A DNA stretch of 64,000 bases. Source: an uncultured Aquimarina sp. (GTDB lineage: Bacteria > Bacteroidota > Bacteroidia > Flavobacteriales > Flavobacteriaceae). Position 1 is the first letter of the stretch. Each line of letters begins with the position of its first letter. The position numbers and the translations under genes are program-made. The notes below the pieces were generated by a model. The model did not search any database and was not told where the DNA came from. It saw only the letters and a program-made list of their open reading frames with translations. Location of the stretch: the NCBI GenBank assembly GCA_947498705.1, contig CANMLW010000001.1:992001-1056000 (forward strand), in the 5' to 3' direction. This document shows, in pieces, positions 8,404 to 27,857 of this stretch.

Positions 8404-8420
8404 TTGCAACTTTATTGCAA
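8404..8420. promoter_or_regulatory. putative Zur operator upstream of the Fur-family gene
   Basis: The sequence contains GCAAC-TTT-ATTGC (core 8406-8418), which matches the 13-bp cores at 16864-16876 and 27651-27663 with one mismatch. It sits 28 bp before the ATG of the Fur-family regulator. This suggests autoregulation by a zinc-responsive repressor. No convincing TAnnTTTG element was found between the box and the start; a near match (TATCTTTA) lies upstream at about 8383. The assignment is by similarity among the three sites and by gene context. Confidence 0.6.
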
Positions 8421-8447: not shown

Positions 8448-8825
8448 ATGAAAAAAAGAAGGAATACCCAAAAACAGGAATTGGTACTGGAAATTTTGGC
8501 AAACGCATCTCACACTATGTCTGCCGAAACGATTTTGGAAGCAATGCCTATTAAGATAAATAAAACCACTATCTATAGAATATTAGAGCGATTTACAGAA
8601 AGTGGAAAAGTTCATTTTGTTACCGGAGATGATGGTAGAGCGTATTATGCACTTTGTAAACAGTGTTCTTCAGAACATGACTTACATAATCATATTCATT
8701 TTCAGTGTAAATATTGTAATCAAATAGCATGTTTACCTTATACCATTAATGTTCCCGAATTAGAGAATTATGAAGTGCAGGAAACCCAATTTCTGTTAAT
8801 AGGAAAATGTAAAGAATGTATCTAA
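8448..8825 (+). CDS. zur: Fur-family metal-responsive repressor, probably Zur
   Basis: The 125-residue protein has the Fur winged-helix N-terminus (QELVLEILANASHTMSAETI, then KTTIYRILERF) and a C-terminal metal region with CKQC, a HDLHNHIHF histidine cluster, CKYC and a terminal CKEC. These CxxC pairs form the structural zinc site in Fur proteins. Zur is preferred over Fur because three GCAAC-N3-GTTGC palindromes lie in front of this gene, a COG0523 GTPase gene and an ABC/DUF3299 operon, all typical zinc-starvation genes. It is a little shorter than most Fur proteins (135-150 residues). PerR or Fur specificity cannot be excluded without binding data. Confidence 0.72.
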   Translation: MKKRRNTQKQELVLEILANASHTMSAETILEAMPIKINKTTIYRILERFTESGKVHFVTGDDGRAYYALCKQCSSEHDLHNHIHFQCKYCNQIACLPYTINVPELENYEVQETQFLLIGKCKECI

Positions 8826-10243: not shown

Positions 10244-11593
10244 TTATAATCGCTTCATCTTTGGTATTGATATTAATAGCATAATTATTGATGCTATTAT
10301 TAGTGGTATCATACTTTGCATAGGTTGTAAGTTAACCTCTACATCATAATACTCTGGTTTAAATTGATTCCAATCGATTGTATCTGCATGTTTATCTTCG
10401 AATATTTTAGGGTAGAAAAACAATCTTAATTTTTCATGAAACGCATTGGTAGCGTTCAAATAATCCATTTGTTGACTCATACTGGTCCCTGCTAATTGAT
10501 TAAATAAAAGCTGCAAATGCATGTTAGGGATTATAGAAGCAATTCGTTTGCTGGTTTGTTCACGCAATTTGATCTTCTTGTTGAGTGCATTTTGTTGTTT
10601 TCTCGAATCATCGTCACCCATCTGCTGCATGGCGTAATACCATAGCCAACTAAATCCATCTATTGGGTATCCATATTTTTTAAATTGTGGATAGTGTTGA
10701 TAAAATTTTTCTATAGTAGCTAGCTTATCAGTATCCCACTTTACGTGATATCCATCTCTTTGTGCTATAGCCGTACTTAATGCTTCTGACACCGGGTATT
10801 TGGATGATACATACGCATTAACTCCCGCCGGTAAAAGAATGATCAATACTAACCAAATTGATAAAAGTAAAGACGCATTAAAGCCGGAAAGTTTCTTAAA
10901 ACTAATAATAAAAAAAGTTAGAGTAAACCAGAAAAAAATATAGAGCATCGATAATCCTAACATCCAAAAAAAGTGAGTATCTAAAGGTAAGTTGAGGATT
11001 AGTTTAGCTATACCAAAAAGAAATAGTAAGATTGTGTACAACAACATCAATCGAATCAAAAGTTTAGCAATAATAAACCCCAGTTTAGACCTTGCTTGAA
11101 TTACTACTAAATTCCATGTTCCAGTTTCTGTTTCCTCTGAAACTATATTAAAAGTCATAACAATAACTAAAAGAGGAAATAGATAAATAATCACAAAAGA
11201 AAGGTCAAGATTACCAGATTGCAGATTCATTGGGTTTACCAAATCTGTATCATATTTCTGCGCCTCAAAGGTCTTTATAGTGATTTGTTTTATCGTTGGG
11301 TTTACATCTGCTTGTCCTATTGATATTCCTGCCAACGAATTTACAGTATTGACATAAGCAAACTTTGTATAATATAACAACAGCCCTAAATCCTTATTAT
11401 GAAGCGATACTTGCCGATCAAAATGTTGTTTTTGATGTGTTTTCACTTCGGCGATTGCATCTTCTTGTCTTTCGAGGTGTTTATCTCCTATGATAATTCC
11501 AATAACACCTAACAATGTAATAAGTAATAGACTTATCCAAACTTCCTTTGTTCGAATGCATTGCTGTAAAAATAGTTTATATAGTATTATCAT
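10244..11593 (-). CDS. ABC transporter permease, DUF3526 type (cassette 2, second permease)
   Basis: The start is the ATG at 11593, which overlaps the stop of the preceding permease as ATGA; a longer frame up to 11650 lies inside that gene. The 449-residue product begins MIILYKLFLQQC and has an N-terminal helix, a soluble segment with SIGQADVNP, the DLSFVIIYLFPLLVIV helix, the EETETGTWNLVVIQ cytoplasmic motif, several further helices, a soluble domain and a C-terminal helix. It is the counterpart of the permease at 2525-3961. It is the last gene of the - strand operon with the ATPase and TonB receptor. Confidence 0.87.
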   Translation of the reverse strand: MIILYKLFLQQCIRTKEVWISLLLITLLGVIGIIIGDKHLERQEDAIAEVKTHQKQHFDRQVSLHNKDLGLLLYYTKFAYVNTVNSLAGISIGQADVNPTIKQITIKTFEAQKYDTDLVNPMNLQSGNLDLSFVIIYLFPLLVIVMTFNIVSEETETGTWNLVVIQARSKLGFIIAKLLIRLMLLYTILLFLFGIAKLILNLPLDTHFFWMLGLSMLYIFFWFTLTFFIISFKKLSGFNASLLLSIWLVLIILLPAGVNAYVSSKYPVSEALSTAIAQRDGYHVKWDTDKLATIEKFYQHYPQFKKYGYPIDGFSWLWYYAMQQMGDDDSRKQQNALNKKIKLREQTSKRIASIIPNMHLQLLFNQLAGTSMSQQMDYLNATNAFHEKLRLFFYPKIFEDKHADTIDWNQFKPEYYDVEVNLQPMQSMIPLIIASIIMLLISIPKMKRL

Positions 11594-13041
11594 ATCGCCC
11601 TTGCTTTTTTTGAAGTGAATACTAGTAAGCCTAAAACACCAATTACCCACAATAGTATAGAAATTAATGCTGGAAAAGCTTCTTTTAACGAATTACCAAA
11701 TCCCATAGGTATATGGTTAAAATCCCTAAATTCTTGCCAATGTTGGTGATTTACAACATGAGTTTTCCCTTCTGAACCACTTTCTTTTTTCGGACTGATA
11801 TATTCCATTTGTAACTCATTCATGGTTTGAGCTAATTGATAACGATAGTCATCTGCTTTATTTTGAAAATCGATATAGGATGAGAAATCTGTTCCAGCCA
11901 TAGTCATCGATAATTGTTTGATCGCTGTAAATGGATTGATAAAAGACGAAAACCTAGTTATATCATTTTGACTTTTAAAAATGTTCACCAACTTGGTATG
12001 GTGTTTTCTATATAAGGCAGATGTAATTTTTTCTCCTTCCCGCATCACAAAACCCGAATAATTAAAAGGTAAATCGACTACTTTACTTACCTTATGTACT
12101 GTTAAAACAGAATCTTTTAGGTTATTATAGTGAGGGTCATTAGGATTATGACTATCCCCTTTTTGAATCACTTCTTTCTCAATCGCTGATTGAAAAGCCA
12201 GCTTACTTGGTGTAGGAAACCAGTAATTGCCCATGGCCTGAGCAGATTTTGGTAAAAGTACTACCAACAGTAACCAAATCCCCAATAACCGTAATAAGGC
12301 ATTTTTTGGTGTAGTACTGCTTGTTGATACTGCTACAGTAAGACCCGCTATAATAGCTAGAAATGCTAAATACCCTAAACTGATTAGTAATAAACGTATC
12401 CAGGTAAGATTGTTTATGGTTTGATCACCAATTATTAAAAGTGCTAGACTAACTATGACTAAGATAGGTATAAAAAACAGCAAGGAAATCGCAAAAAGTC
12501 CCAATGATTTTCCAAATAGTATCTCTTTCCAACTGGCTCCTTGAGACAAAAGCATTTTTAATGTCCCATTTTGCCTATCCGCGGCAACAGTAGAAAAACC
12601 TACAAAAAACAGAATTAGTGGTAGAACTAGTTGTAATAATAACGCCAAGCTTAGCTCTCCAAATCGTAACATACCTGTAGAAAATGTGGCCTCAGAGAAG
12701 TTTACACTATTTTGTCGATGCGCTTCCAAAAAAACTGTATTCCCGGTAAAACTTTCCAATCCGTAATCAAATATTGCCAAAGAAGGATTTATTCGAAATG
12801 CAAAAGTTCCAAAATGGGCCATACGATGTGGATGTTTATCGGGATTTGCCTCCCAACTTTGTCTGGCTTTGTTTTGATGTTCTTGCCGAATATTATTTTG
12901 AGAACTATACTTTTTTATACCGCTAACAGCGGCATAAGCTGTTAGCAGTATAAAAATTGAGAATAGTAGATAAAAAGTTTTGGGTGTTGTTGCATTTTGC
13001 CAAAAATTCAATGCAAATAACCGAACATTAGCCCATTTCAT
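11590..13041 (-). CDS. ABC transporter permease, DUF3526 type (cassette 2, first permease)
   Basis: The 483-residue integral membrane protein has the DUF3526 layout: an N-terminal helix, an extracytoplasmic stretch with GTFAFRINPSLAIFDYGLE, clustered helices around the ADRQNGTLKMLLSQ motif, a large second soluble domain and one C-terminal helix. The permease at 1096-2532 carries the same motifs in the same order. It begins 3 bp after the TonB receptor gene ends and overlaps the next permease by 4 bp, so the receptor and transporter are made together. It probably pairs with the product of 10244-11593. Confidence 0.88.
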   Translation of the reverse strand: MKWANVRLFALNFWQNATTPKTFYLLFSIFILLTAYAAVSGIKKYSSQNNIRQEHQNKARQSWEANPDKHPHRMAHFGTFAFRINPSLAIFDYGLESFTGNTVFLEAHRQNSVNFSEATFSTGMLRFGELSLALLLQLVLPLILFFVGFSTVAADRQNGTLKMLLSQGASWKEILFGKSLGLFAISLLFFIPILVIVSLALLIIGDQTINNLTWIRLLLISLGYLAFLAIIAGLTVAVSTSSTTPKNALLRLLGIWLLLVVLLPKSAQAMGNYWFPTPSKLAFQSAIEKEVIQKGDSHNPNDPHYNNLKDSVLTVHKVSKVVDLPFNYSGFVMREGEKITSALYRKHHTKLVNIFKSQNDITRFSSFINPFTAIKQLSMTMAGTDFSSYIDFQNKADDYRYQLAQTMNELQMEYISPKKESGSEGKTHVVNHQHWQEFRDFNHIPMGFGNSLKEAFPALISILLWVIGVLGLLVFTSKKARAI

Positions 13042-13044
13042 CTT

Positions 13045-15543
13045 TTAGAATTTATAAGTTGCATTTAATAAAATATTTCTTGGTGCACCCGGTCCTAGCC
13101 TAGAAGGGTTAAGACCACCTAACCAATACGTATCATTAAATAAGTTGTTTACTTTTAGTGTTAACTGCATATTTATGTTGTTAGGTTTGTAATATACAGC
13201 TCCATCTAATACCGTGTATTCTGGTAATAGTACTCTATCGGTACTATATGTAGGATTGTACCAGGTATATCTCTCGTCTACATATTGAGCTCCTAAACCA
13301 ATTCCAATGCCTTTTAATAAAGAAATTGAATTAAAATCATATCTCCCCCAAAAATTTGCATTATGCTCTGGAGCTCCACCTATTCGTGCTCCTATAAATT
13401 CTGCAACGGCATCTTCTTCAATTGTAGCCTCTGTATAAGCATACGAAGCTGTTAATTGTAAGTTAGGTAATACATAACCTGAAATATCCGTTTCAAAACC
13501 TCTACTTCTTTGCTCTCCTCTTGTTGTTAAGTTATCTAAATCATAAGTATCTCCAAGTAAGATATTTTTTTGGGTAACATTAAAAACTGCGAGGTTGGCA
13601 AATATTTTCCCATTTAAAAACTCTCCTTTGGCACCTACTTCCATTAAGGTACTTTCTAATGGATCAAACCTGCTTGGTGATGCTGCCCAGAAAAAACCTT
13701 CTGCTGTTGGTGACAATGATACTGTATTAGTATGTGGTTGAAATCCTTGCAGATATGTAGCATACGCACTAATATCATTAGTTATTTCATAGGTTAAACC
13801 AAACCTAGGTACAAAAGCACTAGTCTCAAATTCTTCTTCTTCACCTTTATAATCAAAAATATCAGTAAACCACTCATACCTTAAGTTTACTAATGCTGAG
13901 AGTTTTCCAATCTTGAATTGGTTTTGAAAATAGATCCCGTTTGAAGTATTCAAATTTGCAGGAATTGTTAATTCAGAAAGGTTATAAGCATTTGTATTTC
14001 TAGCTCCGTTAAAAGGGTTTTCTAAATTAAAATGAGGAACAGCAGGCACTGGCATAGTTACACCATCTACCACCATTTGTTGAAAATTTCCTGGATCACT
14101 TGGGTCAAAATTAGCCTGACCACCATTAATTGTTAAATATCTTCTAGCACGAAGGAATCCTGCACCAATTTTTCTTTCCCACCTCGTAGCATCATATCCA
14201 ACTAATAACTTATTGGTAAGGTTACCTTTTTTGATATCGTAATTAAAATATGCGCTAAAATTATCTGTTTTCCAAAACTGTTGTCTTTTATCATATCGCA
14301 TTCTTGCAAGTGTAGGAATCACATTACCATCAATATCAACTGCCGTACCATCAACTCTATGCTCGGCTAAATCCTCATCCCAAGTTTGTTTCATGAACTG
14401 AGCATTGAAACCAAAGTTTTCAGTAAACTTTTGATTAAAATTAGCCATAAATATGAGCTCTTTAGTTTTGTAGTGGTCGTTTGATGCACCAACATTCCTT
14501 GTGATAGGAGTACTATTTAAATCGAATTCACCATTAATTGCACCAAAAATTGGCTGACCTCTATCCAAATTACCTTCAGCGTTATTGTAAATCATTTCAA
14601 CATTTAGGGATGTCTTTTTGTTAGGGACATAACTTAAAGAAGGAGTAATTAAAATAGCATTGTTATTTACGACATCTCTAAAAGAATCTGCTTCTTGAAC
14701 TGCTGCATTAAAACGATATAATAAGGTTTTAGAATCGTTCAATGGCCCTGTAAAATCTGCTGTAGCTCTTAGGGTTCCAAAACTCCCAGTTGTTAAACTT
14801 ATTGAATTTCTTTTTTCGGTCAACGGCTTTTTAGTTACCATATTTACCGTTCCCCCAGGATCTGCACTAGAAAAAGTTACAGAAGACGGTCCTTTAATAA
14901 CCTCTACGCGTTCTAAATGCGAAGTAATAGGTTGTAAAAAGTAATATTGACGTGTACGCATTCCATTAAGCATTTGTCCATCATCGGCTTGAGTGATACC
15001 TCTAATATTATAATGATTATATATACCAGTAGCCGATACACCACTTACTGTTTTTACAGCATCTGGTAACTGAAATGCTTGCCGATCTTCAATAAGTTCT
15101 TTGGTTACAGTAGCCACTGCTTGTGGCAACTCTTTATTTTTGATAGCTATTTTGGTTGCAGAAAACGAATAATCACTGTTATAATCCGTTCGGGCGCGGC
15201 CAATAACTTCTACACTTTGTAGTTGTTCGGTACCTTCTTCTAACGAAATTGTCCCGATATCGAATGTGGTACCATCACCGGTCTCAATATTATTTTTGTA
15301 AGCCTGAAATCCTAAATATCTTACTTCTAAATTATATTTACCAGAAGGAGCATTTATTTCAAATTGTCCAGTTTCATTAGAGAGTTCACCAAAAGTATTT
15401 TCTGTGTTTTTTAGTGAAATGGTTGCTCCTATTATTGGATTATTTTTATTATCGACCACAGTACCTGTTATTTGTACTTGTGCCAAAGAGGTATACCCAA
15501 TAAATGACAATGCAATTATGAGAATTGATTTAAAAAGTTTCAT
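13045..15543 (-). CDS. TonB-dependent siderophore receptor with N-terminal carboxypeptidase-like domain
   Basis: The 832-residue outer-membrane protein has a signal peptide (residues 1-21, ending SLA), a carboxypeptidase-regulatory-like beta-sandwich (about 24-110, with VQITGTVVDNKNNPIIGATI), a plug domain (about 140-240, with the GPSSVTFSSADPGGTVNMVT motif typical of ferri-siderophore receptors) and a beta-barrel ending in an aromatic residue (NATYKF). It should import a ferric siderophore or similar complex using TonB energy. It lies 20 bp after the ATPase gene and 3 bp before the permease genes. The ligand cannot be deduced. Confidence 0.92.
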   Translation of the reverse strand: MKLFKSILIIALSFIGYTSLAQVQITGTVVDNKNNPIIGATISLKNTENTFGELSNETGQFEINAPSGKYNLEVRYLGFQAYKNNIETGDGTTFDIGTISLEEGTEQLQSVEVIGRARTDYNSDYSFSATKIAIKNKELPQAVATVTKELIEDRQAFQLPDAVKTVSGVSATGIYNHYNIRGITQADDGQMLNGMRTRQYYFLQPITSHLERVEVIKGPSSVTFSSADPGGTVNMVTKKPLTEKRNSISLTTGSFGTLRATADFTGPLNDSKTLLYRFNAAVQEADSFRDVVNNNAILITPSLSYVPNKKTSLNVEMIYNNAEGNLDRGQPIFGAINGEFDLNSTPITRNVGASNDHYKTKELIFMANFNQKFTENFGFNAQFMKQTWDEDLAEHRVDGTAVDIDGNVIPTLARMRYDKRQQFWKTDNFSAYFNYDIKKGNLTNKLLVGYDATRWERKIGAGFLRARRYLTINGGQANFDPSDPGNFQQMVVDGVTMPVPAVPHFNLENPFNGARNTNAYNLSELTIPANLNTSNGIYFQNQFKIGKLSALVNLRYEWFTDIFDYKGEEEEFETSAFVPRFGLTYEITNDISAYATYLQGFQPHTNTVSLSPTAEGFFWAASPSRFDPLESTLMEVGAKGEFLNGKIFANLAVFNVTQKNILLGDTYDLDNLTTRGEQRSRGFETDISGYVLPNLQLTASYAYTEATIEEDAVAEFIGARIGGAPEHNANFWGRYDFNSISLLKGIGIGLGAQYVDERYTWYNPTYSTDRVLLPEYTVLDGAVYYKPNNINMQLTLKVNNLFNDTYWLGGLNPSRLGPGAPRNILLNATYKF

Positions 15544-15563: not shown

Positions 15564-16259
15564 TTAAATTGTTTTTAGGTATAAGTTTTGTAATTCGGTA
15601 GCATTAATACTATCGGTGCTTGTGTTATGAAGCAATTTTCCTTCTTTCATAATCCCAATTTTAGTCCCCACGTTTACAGCATTAAAAATATCGTGAGTAG
15701 CCATAAAAATGGCAGTACCATCTTGGCTTAATTCTTTACAGATTTTAGTAAATTCTATGGTCGCTTTGGGGTCCAAACCAGAAATAGGTTCGTCCATAAA
15801 AATATAATCCGCATTCTTTGACAAGGCTATAGCGATACCAACTTTTTGTCTCATCCCCTTAGAGTATGAAGACAATTTTTTATGATGTGCTGTTTCTTGA
15901 AGTCCCGCTTTGGATAGAAAAATGGATAACTCGGTATTTGCATATCGAAACCCGGCTAACCTACTGAAGAAGTTAAGATTATCAATCCCCGAAAGGTTGC
16001 CATATAGCTGAACAACTTCGGGAATATATGCAATCATTTGGGTGGTTTTGTTATTATTTGGTTTCACAGGTATCCCATTAACCAAAACTTCACCACTTGT
16101 AGGCTCAATTAGGCCTAAAAACAGATTGATTGTTGTTGTTTTACCTGCGCCATTTTGACCAAGTAAACAAAAAATTTCTCCTTTATCAATTGATAAATTC
16201 AGTTGACTAAGTGCTACGTGCTTACCATATTTTTTGGTAAGATTGATGGCTTGAAGCAT
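15564..16259 (-). CDS. ABC transporter ATP-binding protein (ABC-2 type, cassette 2)
   Basis: The 231-residue ATPase has Walker A GQNGAGKTT at residues 34-42, signature YSKGMRQ at 132-138, Walker B DYIFMDEP at 151-158 and a downstream ATHD switch His. It is the first gene of the - strand operon ATPase-receptor-permease-permease. It is a clear paralogue of the ATPase at 344-1045, with motif positions identical in both proteins. The separation of ATPase and permease genes by a TonB receptor gene is unusual and argues for a shared role of receptor and transporter in metal-chelate handling. Confidence 0.93.
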   Translation of the reverse strand: MLQAINLTKKYGKHVALSQLNLSIDKGEIFCLLGQNGAGKTTTINLFLGLIEPTSGEVLVNGIPVKPNNNKTTQMIAYIPEVVQLYGNLSGIDNLNFFSRLAGFRYANTELSIFLSKAGLQETAHHKKLSSYSKGMRQKVGIAIALSKNADYIFMDEPISGLDPKATIEFTKICKELSQDGTAIFMATHDIFNAVNVGTKIGIMKEGKLLHNTSTDSINATELQNLYLKTI

Positions 16260-16506: not shown

Positions 16507-16812
16507 TTATAAAAAAGGTGGTGGTTTATTATAAACAAACGTTGGAGAAGCAATCTTTTCTTGAGGGCCTCTGTATTGGATTAAAGCAATAAATGAACTT
16601 GGGATATTTGATTGTTCTTTTTCTAAATGAGAATGATCATTATGAAATAAATCAAGTTGGTGAGAATAAACTAAAATATCGCAAAGTTCACAAGAAACAG
16701 GTTCATCGTCCTCTGATAAATGATTTAAAACATGCAGGTCTACAACCCTTGGAGCAAGGAATGCTACAGTAAATAACAACGTGATGATATGCACTATAAT
16801 ACACTGAAACAT
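16507..16812 (-). CDS. small exported CxxC protein with C-terminal KPPPFL motif (copy 1)
   Basis: No named family was recognised. With the start at 16812 the product is 101 residues, the same length as the paralogue at 23061-23366. A longer frame begins at 16842, but that ATG overlaps the predicted -7 promoter element (16840-16847), so it is unlikely to be transcribed. The protein has an N-terminal hydrophobic segment (CIIVHIITLLFTVAFLAP), then DLHVLNHLSEDDEP with CELCDI, histidines (HQLDLFHNDHSH) and a C-terminal YNKPPPFL. The two copies share R-[VI]-[VA]-DLH, H-[LF]-S-[ED]-DD, CELC[DE]I and YNKPPP. Metal binding at the cell envelope is likely but inferred from the Cys/His content and the Zur-type promoter. 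Confidence 0.72.
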   Translation of the reverse strand: MFQCIIVHIITLLFTVAFLAPRVVDLHVLNHLSEDDEPVSCELCDILVYSHQLDLFHNDHSHLEKEQSNIPSSFIALIQYRGPQEKIASPTFVYNKPPPFL

Positions 16813-16839: not shown

Positions 16840-16847
16840 CAAAGATA
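16840..16847 (-). promoter_or_regulatory. -7 promoter element of the small CxxC gene
   Basis: On the - strand this reads TATCTTTG, an exact match to the Bacteroidota TAnnTTTG element. A TTG within the Zur half-site (CAA at 16865-16867 on the + strand) lies 17 bp upstream and can serve as the -33 element. Transcription would start a few bases downstream, before the ATG at 16812. Confidence 0.6.
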
Positions 16848-16850
16848 ATA

Positions 16851-16889
16851 AAATTTTAATAATGCAACTTTGTTGCGTTATTAAAATTT
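16851..16889. promoter_or_regulatory. 39-bp palindrome, putative Zur operator of a divergent promoter
   Basis: Two 18-bp arms (16851-16868 and 16872-16889) are separated by TTT and match at 17 of 18 positions; the core is GCAAC-TTT-GTTGC. The same core occurs at 27651 and, with one mismatch, at 8406. The palindrome lies exactly between two opposing TAnnTTTG elements, and its half-sites supply the TTG (-33) of both promoters at 17-bp spacing. A bound repressor would therefore block both transcripts. Zinc-responsive control by the Fur-family protein at 8448 is inferred. Confidence 0.75.
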
Positions 16890-16892
16890 ATT

Positions 16893-16900
16893 TACTTTTG
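16893..16900 (+). promoter_or_regulatory. -7 promoter element of the ABC/DUF3299 operon
   Basis: The sequence TACTTTTG matches TAnnTTTG. A TTG at 16873-16875, inside the right half-site of the palindrome, lies 17 bp upstream as the -33 element. The ATG at 16914 follows 13 bp after the -7 box, so the leader is very short. Confidence 0.6.
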
Positions 16901-16913
16901 GAAAAACAATTTT

Positions 16914-17546
16914 ATGATTCGTACCCACGCTCTTCAGTTTACATATCAAGATGTAGAAAATCAAACTCTTTATTTTCCGGATATAGATTTATCTGCAAAA
17001 GAGGATTTACTGATTTTGGGAGCGTCGGGAGTGGGAAAAACAACATTCATTCATCTTTTGGCAGGTCTCTTACCTCCAAAAGGAGGTAAAATTTTTATTG
17101 ATGACACTTTTCTAAACAAACTTACAAGAAAGCAATTGGATTATTTTAGAGGTCAACATATAGGTCTAATTTTTCAACGTGCATATTTTATTAGGTCATT
17201 ATCTGTTTTAGAGAATTTAACCTTACGAGAGAAGCTCTCTAAAAAAAAGAGCGATCCTCAAAGAAAAGAGGAACTAATCCAGCAATTAGGTCTATCTAAT
17301 CTTCAAAACAAAAGGATTCATCAATTAAGTGAGGGACAACAACAACGACTTTCGATTGCTTTAGGGGTTGTTCATAGTCCCAAAGTAATACTTGCAGATG
17401 AACCTACATCAAATTTAGATGACGTGAATTGTGAAAAGGTCATTTCATTATTAAAAAAAGAAGCGCGAATCTGTAAAAGTAATTTAGTGATTATAACCCA
17501 TGATCAAAGGGTAAAATCACATTTTAACAATCATATAATTTTATAA
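16914..17546 (+). CDS. LolD/MacB-like ABC transporter ATP-binding protein, putatively zinc-responsive
   Basis: The 210-residue ATPase has Walker A GASGVGKT at residues 36-43, signature LSEGQQQR at 138-145 and Walker B VILADEPTSNLDD at 158-170, with a terminal ITHD switch. These features place it with LolD/FtsE/MacB-type ATPases that partner FtsX-like permeases, as encoded 2 bp downstream. It starts just after the palindromic operator and is the first gene of a three-gene operon. In Pseudomonas aeruginosa a Zur-controlled cluster (PA4063-PA4066, from memory) has the same ATPase-FtsX permease-DUF3299 order, which supports a zinc-related role rather than lipoprotein release. Confidence 0.88.
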   Translation: MIRTHALQFTYQDVENQTLYFPDIDLSAKEDLLILGASGVGKTTFIHLLAGLLPPKGGKIFIDDTFLNKLTRKQLDYFRGQHIGLIFQRAYFIRSLSVLENLTLREKLSKKKSDPQRKEELIQQLGLSNLQNKRIHQLSEGQQQRLSIALGVVHSPKVILADEPTSNLDDVNCEKVISLLKKEARICKSNLVIITHDQRVKSHFNNHIIL

Positions 17547-17548
17547 TC

Positions 17549-18745
17549 TTGTTATACCTGGCTTACAAAAATCTTATCTCTAAACCTTTGAATACTTTTT
17601 TAAGTATTTTGCTATTAATGTTAAGTATTTCCTTAGCAACTTTTGTTTTACAAATGAAAGATCAGCTTAATCAGCATTTAGAAAAAAATACAAAGCCATT
17701 TGATATGGTTATTGGTGCTAAAGGAAGTCCTCTTCAACTTATACTATCTTCTATTTTACATATAGATAATCCCACAGGTAATATATCTTTAAATGAAGCG
17801 CTAAAAATTGGAAAGAATCCCATGGTAAAAGAAATGATACCGGTTTCATACGGAGATAACTATAAAGGGTATAGGATTTTAGGGACCCCAGATAAGTATC
17901 TAAATCAATACGGGGCAACGCTAAGGGAAGGAAAATTATATAAAAAACCATTTGAAGTAGTTGTTGGAAGTTATGTTGCAGAAAAAAATAACTTACAACT
18001 GGGAAGTAGCTTTACCAGCACACATGGTCTAGCAGAAAATGGATTAGAAACTCATACTACAAAACCTTTTATGGTTACCGGAATACTAAACCCGACAGCA
18101 TCCATTCTTGATCACCTTATCATCACCAATTTAAAGAGTATTTGGGAAGTACATGAACACGAGCACGAACACACTCCTCATGAAGAATATCATGAAAAAG
18201 AACGAGAAATAACCTCACTTCTAGTTAAATTCAGAAACCCGATAGGAGCTTTACAAATGTCCCGATACATAAATGAAAAAACCACCATGCAAGCTGCCCT
18301 TCCAAAGTTTGAAATTGAGCGATTAATGAAATTTCTAGGAGTTGGCTTTCAAACAATTAACAGTATTGCTATTATAATATTATTGGTAGCAGGGCTTAGC
18401 ATATTTATTAATTTAATAAAAACAGTAAGAGAGAGAAAACAGGAACTAGCTTTGTTACGTACTTATGGAGCCAATATTTTTCAGTTGGTAAAACTGGTGT
18501 TTTTAGAAGCTATTTTTTTATCAATGTTAGGATTTATTTTAGGATGGTTTTTAGGTAGAATTAGCACTTGGTTTTTCTCAATTTATTCAGAAAACGCTTA
18601 TGGGTATCATTTTGTATTTGGGCTACCAAATAATAAAGAGTTATTCATATTGGCATTAGTGATTCTAACCACTTTCATAGCTGCAATTTTGGCCTCTACT
18701 TCATTATATAAATTAAATGTCTCTAAAATATTAGCCAATGTATAA
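17549..18745 (+). CDS. FtsX-like ABC permease with His-rich periplasmic loop
   Basis: The start is a TTG 2 bp after the ATPase stop; it gives MLYLAYKNLISKPLNTFLSI, the normal beginning of LolC/E-MacB permeases. The 398-residue protein has one N-terminal helix (about 15-36), a periplasmic MacB-like domain (about 40-260) and three C-terminal helices (about 270-390). The periplasmic domain carries a striking His/Glu cluster at residues 202-216 (VHEHEHEHTPHEEYHE), suited to binding zinc or another transition metal. Its stop overlaps the next start by 8 bp. Function is inferred from the Zur-type operator, this cluster and the neighbouring DUF3299-like gene. Confidence 0.88.
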   Translation: MLYLAYKNLISKPLNTFLSILLLMLSISLATFVLQMKDQLNQHLEKNTKPFDMVIGAKGSPLQLILSSILHIDNPTGNISLNEALKIGKNPMVKEMIPVSYGDNYKGYRILGTPDKYLNQYGATLREGKLYKKPFEVVVGSYVAEKNNLQLGSSFTSTHGLAENGLETHTTKPFMVTGILNPTASILDHLIITNLKSIWEVHEHEHEHTPHEEYHEKEREITSLLVKFRNPIGALQMSRYINEKTTMQAALPKFEIERLMKFLGVGFQTINSIAIIILLVAGLSIFINLIKTVRERKQELALLRTYGANIFQLVKLVFLEAIFLSMLGFILGWFLGRISTWFFSIYSENAYGYHFVFGLPNNKELFILALVILTTFIAAILASTSLYKLNVSKILANV

Positions 18746-19184
18746 AATGTTTTTTCTTTTTATGGTAACCATTTCGGTTCAATCTAATCTGTTTTCTCAG
18801 CATAAAATGACGTGGAATGATTTGACCGATGTGACTTTTAACAAGGTATATAGTGCTGCATATGATGACTTTTTTTTAAAGCCAACTTTTGGATCTTCTG
18901 TAAAATCGTACCGAGGTGTTTTAATTCGTGTAAAAGGTTATTTTTTAGATTTTTCGACAGGTGAAGACCAATTCCATTTATTATCAAAAAACCCTATGTC
19001 CTCTTGTTTTTTTTGTGGCGGTGCTGGCCCAGAAACCATTATAGAAGTTGTTTATAAACAAAAACCAAATTTCAAAACAGATCAAATAGTAGAGGTTACA
19101 GGAATCCTTGAACTTAATACAGATGACGTAGATCACTGTAATTATATTATTAAGGAAGCTACCAGTAAGTTAATCAATAAATAA
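18738..19184 (+). CDS. exported DUF3299-like protein with CxxC motif
   Basis: The 148-residue product has a signal peptide (residues 1-21, MYKMFFLFMVTISVQSNLFS) and a mature domain beginning MTWNDLTDVTF. It then shows a beta strand with RGVLIRVKGYFLDF and the segment SSCFFCGGAGPETIIEV, and ends with a TGILELN strand. The W-x-x-L start, the C-x-x-C-x-x-x-x-P segment and the overall length match my recollection of DUF3299 proteins, which sit beside FtsX-type ABC genes under zinc control in proteobacteria. It overlaps the permease gene by 8 bp. The family call is moderate; export and operon membership are clear. Confidence 0.75.
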   Translation: MYKMFFLFMVTISVQSNLFSQHKMTWNDLTDVTFNKVYSAAYDDFFLKPTFGSSVKSYRGVLIRVKGYFLDFSTGEDQFHLLSKNPMSSCFFCGGAGPETIIEVVYKQKPNFKTDQIVEVTGILELNTDDVDHCNYIIKEATSKLINK

Positions 19185-23060: not shown

Positions 23061-23366
23061 CTAAAGTATAGGAGGAGGTTTATTATATACAATTTCGGGT
23101 TGAGTGATAGAATAATAAGGTGTCTTATATCGAAGATCAACCTTAATCACATGAAAAACAACATCCTGATGTGTTTTTTCTTCGATAAACGGACTATCTA
23201 ACAGCGGTGTAAATTGGTTTGATGTAATTATTATCTCACATAATTCACAATGTGTTAGATCATCATCAGAAAAATGAGAATAAGAATGTAGATCAGCGAT
23301 TCTTATAAACAGAAAAGCTAAAAGAAAAAATAATGAGATATTTTTGGTCTTTTTGTTTACCCTCAT
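23061..23366 (-). CDS. small exported CxxC protein with C-terminal KPPPIL motif (copy 2)
   Basis: This 101-residue protein is a paralogue of the product of 16507-16812. It has a signal-like hydrophobic segment (ISLFFLLAFLFIRIA), DLHSYSHFSDDDLTHCELCEI and a terminal YNKPPPIL. The middle is variable between the copies. No named family was recognised; small Cys/His proteins with a proline-rich tail (for example DUF2946) look broadly similar in proteobacteria. It lies 61 bp after the metallophosphatase gene and may belong to that transcript. No palindromic operator was seen in front of it, unlike copy 1. Confidence 0.7.
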   Translation of the reverse strand: MRVNKKTKNISLFFLLAFLFIRIADLHSYSHFSDDDLTHCELCEIIITSNQFTPLLDSPFIEEKTHQDVVFHVIKVDLRYKTPYYSITQPEIVYNKPPPIL

Positions 23367-26363: not shown

Positions 26364-27587
26364 TTATTTCAATGCATACACTCTTTCGACGGGCCATTCA
26401 TCATTATAGCCTTCTTCCCATTTTTGACCCACTAATTCTTTATCATTTAGTAAACAAGCATTGAGTTCTTCAATAATTTGTTTTTCATCCATATATCGAC
26501 CTATAAACACTATTTCATTTTTTCGATCACCAAAGGTTTTGTCCCAACTTTTTTCAATTGTTTCTTGATTTTCGATAAATGGTAAATATTCGATTCGTTT
26601 TTCGAAAGGCATACTACTCCACCAAACTCCTGCACTGTCTGCTTTCAAAGAACCACCTGCTTGCCCCCAAACCAATGCTTGTTCTGGTCTCGAAGCAACC
26701 CAAAATAAACCTTTGCTTCGAATAACACTATTCGGAAATTTTTGTTGTACAAATTTCCAAAAACGATTAGGGTCAAAAGGTTTTTTTGATCTATATACAA
26801 AAGAAGATATTCCATATTCTTCTGTTTCTGGAGTATGTTTGTCCTTATTGAGTTCTTCTATCCAACCAGCACTTTGCTCTGCTTCCTCAAAATTGAAAAG
26901 TCTTGTATTAAGGATTTCTTTGGGTTCTATTTTACTATAGCTTGATTCTATAATGCGAGCGGTAGGGTTCAATTTATGGATGGATGCTTTCAATATACCT
27001 AGGTGTTCTTTTGATACCAAATCTGTTTTGTTCAGCACAATGATGTTAGCAAATTCGATTTGATCGGTCAATAAATTGACAATAGTTCTGTAATCACCTT
27101 CTATGTTGGTTAGTTTTCTATCTATCAAGGTTTCTGGACTTCCAAAATCTTTAAAAAAATTAAAGGCATCTACTACAGTCACCATGGTATCAATGTAGCT
27201 AAAACGAGAAAGGTCAATCCCATTTTCTTCATCTACAAAACTGAAGGTTTGTGCTACCGGAACAGGCTCACTGATCCCAGTACTTTCAATAAGCAAGTAA
27301 TCAAATCGATTCTCTTTGGCCAAACGTTCTACTTCGATCATCAAGTCTTCTCTTAGCGTACAACAGATACATCCATTACTCATTTCAACCAACTTCTCTT
27401 CAGTACGTGAAAGTGTGTTTTCATTTTTCACAAGCTTGGCATCTACGTTCACCTCGCTCATATCATTTACGATAACAGCAACTTTTAATCCTTCTTTATT
27501 GTGTAGAATGTGGTTGAGTAATGTTGTTTTTCCGGCTCCTAGGAAACCACTTAAAACAGTAACTGGTAATTTCTTTGTGATGCTCAT
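26364..27587 (-). CDS. COG0523-family GTPase (ZigA/ZNG1-like), putatively Zur-controlled
   Basis: The 407-residue protein has Walker [11 protein letters not shown] (residues 13-22), the CICC metal motif at 73-76, Walker [12 protein letters not shown], a canonical NKTD ([10 protein letters not shown]) and a full CobW C-terminal domain (about 270-400, with [18 protein letters not shown]). It fits the zinc-responsive COG0523 subgroup that is induced when zinc is scarce and is thought to pass zinc to client enzymes. A perfect GCAAC-AAT-GTTGC palindrome lies 64 bp upstream together with a TAAATTTG promoter element. It differs from the shorter paralogue at 25115 in length and in keeping NKxD. Confidence 0.9.
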
Positions 27588-27632: not shown

Positions 27633-27650
27633 ACAAGAAAAAACACAAAA

Positions 27651-27663
27651 GCAACAATGTTGC
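27651..27663. promoter_or_regulatory. putative Zur operator, GCAAC-AAT-GTTGC
   Basis: A perfect 13-bp palindrome with a 3-bp centre matches the core of the operator at 16864-16876. It overlaps the predicted -33 region of the COG0523 gene at 26364-27587, so repression by a zinc-loaded Fur-family protein is expected. Confidence 0.7.
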
Positions 27664-27857
27664 ATTTAAAGAATTGCGGCACCAACAAAATAACATAACC
27701 CAAATTGCCAATATATAAAAACTAGATCATACAACTAAAAGAGGTATTTATTAAAAGAAAAGCATATCTAATGATCTTAATACATACCAATCATTCTACT
27801 GTATAAACAATACTGATCGACATTATGCCTTTGTTATTCTCTATTTTGAACCAATAA

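Follow-up and report, generated by a model that had tools for sequence, protein, structure and literature searches.

A putative Zur operator common to two divergent promoters in an uncultured Aquimarina, and its conservation in relatives

In the genome of an uncultured Aquimarina sp. (5.08 Mb, 88 contigs), the palindromic site centred at position 16870 of the window (the stretch of 64,000 nucleotides analyzed here) is probably a Zur operator whose bound dimer would block both of two divergent promoters when zinc is sufficient. A single Fur-family (Zur-type) operator common to the two promoters, with zinc as the likely signal, had been proposed in a first-pass annotation of this DNA, and the idea is supported by the conservation of the site and by the content of the genes around it; as judged from sequence comparison, the shared Zur-type operator is well supported. 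The kind of switch is already known. The znuA and znuCB transcripts of Escherichia coli diverge from a promoter region with one Zur operator, and the site described here would likewise be a single Zur site between two divergent zinc-shortage transcripts. The E. coli region has proteobacterial -35/-10 promoters and another Zur box, whereas the present locus has -33/-7 promoters, a core of the form GCAAC-N3-GTTGC and an operator centred at -35 on both sides. The points of interest are the clean geometry, its conservation and a change of partner gene.

The region from 16840 to 16900 reads CAAAGATA...GCAACTTTGTTGC...TACTTTTG in the window sequence and is built as CAAAGATA, 16 bases, GCAAC TTT GTTGC, 16 bases and TACTTTTG; it lies between a leftward gene (16507-16812, minus strand) and a rightward gene (16914-17546, plus strand). 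A palindrome of 39 bp (16851-16889, no strand, centre 16870) is paired at 17 of the 18 arm positions counted (positions 2-19 around 16870). This is the best value in the window: the runner-up among odd-centred positions has 15 paired, and the maxima in 30 first-order Markov copies of the window were 13-15. The palindrome had been said to lie midway between two TAnnTTTG boxes, and this is confirmed. The motif occurs 41 times on one strand of the window and 43 times on the other, with 16840/16900 as the sole divergent pair 20-70 bp apart. By the Bacteroidota sigma-A -33/-7 consensus the box is exact on both sides of the operator, as TACTTTTG for the rightward operon (16893-16900, plus strand) and as TATCTTTG for the leftward gene (16840-16847, minus strand).

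Published start-site data, taken from the available parts of the papers concerned, set the register of these promoters. In Flavobacterium psychrophilum the TAnnTTTG box occupies -12 to -5 (PMC9723704), and in Flavobacterium johnsoniae 4 or 5 nucleotides separate the box from the start in many sequences, with a -33 motif that is much less evident (PMC6847099). TTTG at -33 belongs to the older consensus for flavobacterial and Bacteroides sigma-A promoters (PMC9723704, PMC6847099, PMC2483708). The promoters predicted here share the TAnnTTTG box of that class, with the G at -5 in the first two of these sources; operators common to two promoters, a feature of the present locus, are not treated in the available parts of the three papers, and the words zinc and Zur are absent from the text of PMC9723704. 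With the G at -5, starts are predicted at about 16905 and 16835, which places the operator centre at -35 of both and leaves leaders of 9 bases rightward and 23 bases leftward. Starts had been expected about 7 bp after the -7 boxes, and the published data correct this to 5 bases after them. The operator would thus overlap the upstream part of both predicted promoters.

The annotation had further held that each half-site supplies the -33 element of one promoter, a claim stronger than the data. TTG at 16873-16875 and the opposite-strand TTG at 16867-16865 are indeed each separated from a -7 box by 17 bp, and both fall at -32 to -30 of the predicted starts. The classical register of -36 to -33, however, is occupied rightward only: the rightward promoter reads TTTG there (16869-16872, plus strand), to which the central TTT of the operator contributes, whereas the leftward promoter reads AAAG, and the mirror symmetry is incomplete to that extent. 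TTTG is not general, because the central triplet varies outside the genus. Dependence of the promoters on a -33 TTG at 17 bp is retained only as a possibility.

The rightward operon begins with an ABC ATPase of the LolD/MacB type (16914-17546, plus strand; PF00005, best NCBIfam model LolD, below its cut-off) followed by an FtsX/MacB-type permease (17549-18745, plus strand; PF02687, PF12704) and a conserved third gene encoding a protein of 148 amino acids (18738-19184, plus strand) whose N-terminus appears hydrophobic by eye. The third protein is 59-71% identical among the five relatives aligned and has no Pfam match at E up to 1. Its earlier designation as DUF3299 (PF11736) is unsupported: a whole-genome profile search gave no match at E up to 10 (no control genome gave one over the cut-off either), none at E up to 5 in six orthologues, and no protein named DUF3299 among the solved structures found by profile. 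A structure model of this protein has a mean pLDDT of 39.9 and is too poor to use.

On the other side, the leftward gene (16507-16812, minus strand) encodes a small protein of 101 amino acids with a CELC motif and no Pfam match. Another small CELC protein is encoded at 23061-23366 (minus strand) and has the same NKPPP near its end; no core site among those listed with up to two mismatches is near its gene. Behind the leftward gene, after a gap of 247 bp, come an ABC ATPase (15564-16259, minus strand; PF00005), a TonB-dependent receptor (13045-15543, minus strand; PF00593, PF07715) and two DUF3526 ABC-2 permeases (11590-13041 and 10244-11650, a block spanning 10244-13041, minus strand; PF12040). 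The ATPase gene may continue the leftward operon, as the same order of small gene, ATPase and TonB receptor is found at locus L099 of a relative, and the small gene and the ABC-TonB-DUF3526 genes perhaps form one transcript across the gap.

The site is conserved within the genus. A search for FtsX in 52 genus genomes gave matches in 49, many of them only general FtsX relatives, and 30 loci were fetched, including that of this genome. The first-pass annotation had suggested searching relatives for the same promoter layout, and the layout recurs: the operator stands before the ABC/FtsX operon in 24 of the 30 loci (this genome included) at a near-fixed distance to the ATPase gene. Among these 24 the core is exact in 22, the left box is present in 23, the right box in 23 and both in 22, and the centre is TTT in 22; the spacer from core to box measures 16-17 bases to the left and 15-16 to the right. 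In the 23 genus loci with a site other than this one, the inner arms (positions 2-6, 8 and 9) are 97.5% paired, while the outer arms (positions 10-19) are 57% paired against 47% expected from composition. Since relatives do not preserve the outer arms, the conserved operator is about 19 bp rather than 39; it occupies 16861-16879 (no strand; core GCAAC-TTT-GTTGC at 16864-16876). The long palindrome described earlier is thus genuine in its pairing, but its extension to 39 bp is particular to this genome. Five of the 30 FtsX loci, with copies of 46-48% identity, have no site at the corresponding place, and in one of them (L041) a core with one mismatch is found at a much greater distance upstream. 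One further locus (L036) ends at a contig edge, and its genome (G010) carries a two-directional boxed site on another contig.

The gene on the left side is more variable. The small CxxC gene had been placed under the left promoter, and in this genome it does lie directly behind it, but the usual partner in relatives is merC, mostly together with folE. At genus loci with longer flanks, merC is near the site in 16 of 18 and folE in 16 of 18, although at least three of these 18 loci seem to be duplicates of the same genomes and the independent cases are fewer. L208 and L059, probably one genome, have folE and no merC was found; at L104, merC lies beside the site and a second zur-like gene is on the other side. 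The order from the operator at L099 is merC, folE, small CxxC gene, ATPase and TonB receptor, and at L212 a separate site belongs to the ATPase-TonB-DUF3526 block. In the present genome merC-folE and the second zur-like gene are neighbours on contig C3. The simplest account is that merC-folE was lost from this place in this lineage; the alternative is its insertion in other lineages. The shared promoter has been kept while the gene on one side changed. The folE beside the operator (L212:10532-11170 and similar genes) scores 263 bits, over a cut-off of 202, as an ordinary FolE, whereas the Zur-regulated clusters described in the available part of PMC2770081 have FolE2 as a zinc-independent substitute.

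The pattern reaches beyond this locus. One-sided matches (core and one box) occur in 42 of the 52 genus genomes, against none in the reversed control, and sites with boxes both ways in 23 of 52 (counted from the listing), again with no control match in 52. Spacers of 15-18 are found in 78 of the 91 listed one-sided genus matches, in which the two directions of a mirror site were counted apart and one site of genome G051 is listed twice; such spacers put the operator centre at -34 to -37. In the family, the exact mirror pattern was found in 7 of 299 genomes, only two of the 299 being from this genus, and the control gave none. The six mirror genomes outside the genus comprise four with ABC/FtsX facing merC and two with a Fur-family gene facing merC, and in four of these folE follows merC. 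The one-sided pattern becomes less frequent outside the genus and is then accompanied by some background, with matches in 25 of 198 genomes of the phylum (five reversed-control matches) and in 49 of 149 genomes of another order (four reversed-control matches). A scan of a larger collection for the mirror pattern gave at least 80 loci from 118 stretches, mostly of Bacteroidota, the exceptions including one record each of Gammaproteobacteria, Calditrichaeota and Ignavibacteriaceae; seven of the eight Aquimarina loci among them have the same ABC/FtsX neighbourhood. When the flanking genes of 80 of these loci were compared with reference proteins, at least one side was recognised in 64, of which 28 had both sides recognised, and neither side in 16; ABC-merC pairs number 11 and Fur-merC pairs 5.

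Within the genome the exact core GCAACNNNGTTGC occurs in six places, compared with two for the reversed control. An operator with the sequence AGCAACAATGTTGCA (27650-27664, no strand) lies upstream of a gene for a ZigA-like GTPase (26364-27587, minus strand), 18 bp from a TAAATTTG box. Other exact cores lie on contig C3 between the second zur-like gene and merC-folE (Pfam MerC and GTP_cyclohydroI), and between a gene for a 158-aa protein without a Pfam match and a TonB receptor gene (Plug), where the -7 box faces the 158-aa gene. The core at C4:67690 is inside a coding frame, and that at C7:26120 is more than 450 bp from the next gene found; two of the six exact cores are without a zinc-shortage gene. 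Across this genome and its relatives, ZigA, merC-folE, TonB, ABC/FtsX and zur-like genes are found near the one core and read as a zinc-shortage set. Scans with up to two mismatches were not counted as evidence on their own. They gave nine matches in the window against a shuffle mean of 5.2 (14 of 100 shuffles reach nine) and, in the whole genome, 115 matches where the reversed control gave 83; the motif is short and loose matches are near chance, so that a single loose match, such as the one before the Fur-family gene, proves little. Two pairs of operator-like sites 37-38 bp apart were also observed, at C1:863791-863843 and C1:987041-987092, one of them between the 158-aa gene and the TonB receptor gene.

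A Fur-family gene that is likely zur lies in the window itself (8448-8825, plus strand; PF01475, 39 bits against a cut-off of 23.1). The loose match just mentioned is TGCAACTTTATTGCA (8405-8419, no strand), which has one mismatch, lies 28 bases before the start codon of this gene and has no TAnnTTTG box behind it. The protein scores 19.9 bits against the NCBI Zur model NF008646, far below its cut-off of 167; we take this model to have been built on proteobacterial Zur, and the protein is for that reason called Zur-type by its targets and not filed under NF008646. Of the six solved structures that it matches, 3eyy ranks first and 2o03 second; the former is named a putative iron uptake regulator and the latter a probable zinc uptake regulator, and the others include a ferric uptake regulator and a peroxide regulator. 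Nine Cys and His residues are invariant in all six regulators aligned (H56, C70, H82, H84, C87, C90, C95, C121 and C124), and C70 aligns with a Cys of 2o03 that is presumably a zinc ligand. The product of the second zur-like gene (C3:117271-117711; L004 and L015) is 60% identical to the window protein, and its gene is followed by the exact operator and then merC-folE.

From the sequence, the geometry, the conservation of the site and the gene content, we infer Zur binding, a zinc signal and occlusion, as we do the start sites on which the register depends. With enough zinc available, the 19-bp element centred at 16870 would be bound by a Fur-family dimer loaded with zinc, most likely that of the 8448-8825 product. 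With the operator centre at -35 on either side, the dimer would cover the upstream half of each of the two divergent sigma-A-type promoters and exclude RNA polymerase from both. When zinc is short the dimer would be released, allowing joint expression of the ABC/FtsX/148-aa operon on the right and the small CxxC gene on the left, perhaps along with the ABC-TonB-DUF3526 genes behind the latter. It is unlikely that another member of the Fur family (the iron Fur, a PerR-like protein or the zur-like protein of contig C3) is the main binder and that the signal is not, or not only, zinc. The genome does encode four Fur-family proteins, and the 60% identity of the window and C3 zur-like proteins means that both could bind the same core, which is found directly behind the C3 gene. 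A core shared between these two would nevertheless remain under zinc control, and the exact cores before or beside the ZigA-like, merC-folE and TonB genes read as a zinc-shortage set.

A different doubt concerns the left side, where the box may be a leftover now that merC is no longer there, with only the rightward promoter real and controlled. Most of the relatives examined have another gene on the left, and the left promoter here is without TTTG at -36 to -33, yet TATCTTTG stands at a spacing of 16 as in many relatives, the small gene begins 23 bases past the predicted leftward start, and at L099 the same small gene follows merC-folE in the same direction from the operator; we regard a dead left promoter as quite improbable. 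The length and near-perfect pairing of the palindrome would fit a hairpin, terminator or cruciform instead of an operator. This reading is disfavoured because the outer arms are unconserved while the core is conserved, and since the palindrome lies upstream of both predicted starts it would be in neither predicted transcript, which makes a structural role very hard to credit. The Zur operator acting on both promoters is preferred over these alternatives.

Operons of the MacB/FtsX type that are controlled by Zur and induced by zinc shortage have been described in Pseudomonas aeruginosa (PA4063-PA4066; PMC11481552) and Vibrio (zrgABCDE; PMC9817125). As far as the available descriptions of these systems go, the rightward operon resembles them in that the ABC ATPase and the FtsX/MacB permease have a gene each, in one operon that also encodes small accessory proteins. 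It differs in its divergent arrangement and in having no DUF3299 protein by profile; DUF2796 is absent from the Pfam matches of the ten neighbours scanned. The P. aeruginosa study, in the part available, argues for export of a complex of pyochelin and cobalt and not for zinc import (PMC11481552), and zinc import by the window operon should therefore not be assumed. The present locus places an ABC/FtsX operon of debated function in the zinc-shortage set of another phylum. Zur control of COG0523 genes has also been published, and the ZigA-like gene resembles the COG0523/ZigA regulons described there in lying behind a putative Zur site (PMC2770081, as far as available); the word beginnings Bacteroid and Flavobact are absent from the text of that paper.

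A literature search, with subscription papers and preprints outside its scope, found no paper on a Zur box in Bacteroidota. A Fur-family study exists for Porphyromonas gingivalis (PMC4222909), and the accessible part of PMC9976891 contains nothing on this site. The one zinc-homeostasis study found for Flavobacteriales describes ZntR of Riemerella anatipestifer, which acts against zinc excess (PMC11960050). ZntR shares with the system proposed here its role in zinc homeostasis in this order, but it is a MerR-family and not a Fur-family protein, and no Zur box is mentioned in the available part of that paper. The locus described here offers a box that can be tested, in a defined position relative to -33/-7 promoters.

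The spacing between core and box provides a further lead, not a result. It is possible, but doubtful, that Bacteroidota use the core GCAAC-N3-GTTGC in two registers and that a 3-bp shift relative to the -7 box sets the sign of the response. At zinc-shortage genes the core centre is mostly at -34 to -38 and the Fur-family protein would repress, whereas at heavy-metal P-type ATPase genes of Bacteroidales, which are zinc-exporter-like, it would be exactly at -32, where the same kind of protein would act differently, perhaps as a zinc-dependent activator. In this scheme a divergent region like 16840-16900 would be repressed on both sides. Both the regulator at the exporters and the direction of its effect there are conjecture. 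Streptomyces Zur is reportedly both repressor and activator. According to the available part of a review (PMC8000910), one Zur can likewise repress uptake and activate export in Xanthomonas campestris, probably via different binding sequences, in contrast to the one core in two positions suggested here. As a MerR-family protein, ZntR of R. anatipestifer speaks for a non-Fur regulator as an alternative at the exporters (PMC11960050, in the part available). If the two-register idea were true, repression could be distinguished from another mode of action at one operator by how far it lies from the -7 box.

The gap from core to TAnnTTTG is 13 on all 21 sides that face a heavy-metal P-type ATPase gene among the 80 mirror loci listed (L060, L065, L066, L068, L073, L076, L077, L080, L083, L084, L087, L094, L096, L116, L118, L122, L123, L127, L131, L134 and L136), and on none of the 35 sides facing ABC or merC genes in the same sample, which consists of related genomes selected by the mirror pattern. 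At the ABC/FtsX and merC promoters the spacing most often seen is 16, so that the core stands 3 bp nearer the box at the ATPase genes. The exporter pattern was first seen in 15 loci picked partly for spacing and was retested on all 80 listed. The 21 ATPases were recognised by similarity to those of L087 and L096, both of the heavy-metal type by NCBIfam, and a Fur-family gene is on the opposite side in three of the 21 loci. No such ATPase gene was found within 400 bp of 61 other one-sided sites, at loci from the order and phylum searches. A search from one ATPase found the exact core upstream of only two of 12 homologues, both with a gap of 13. In one of these two the core is 610 bp upstream, and a site with two mismatches, also with a gap of 13, lies nearer the gene.
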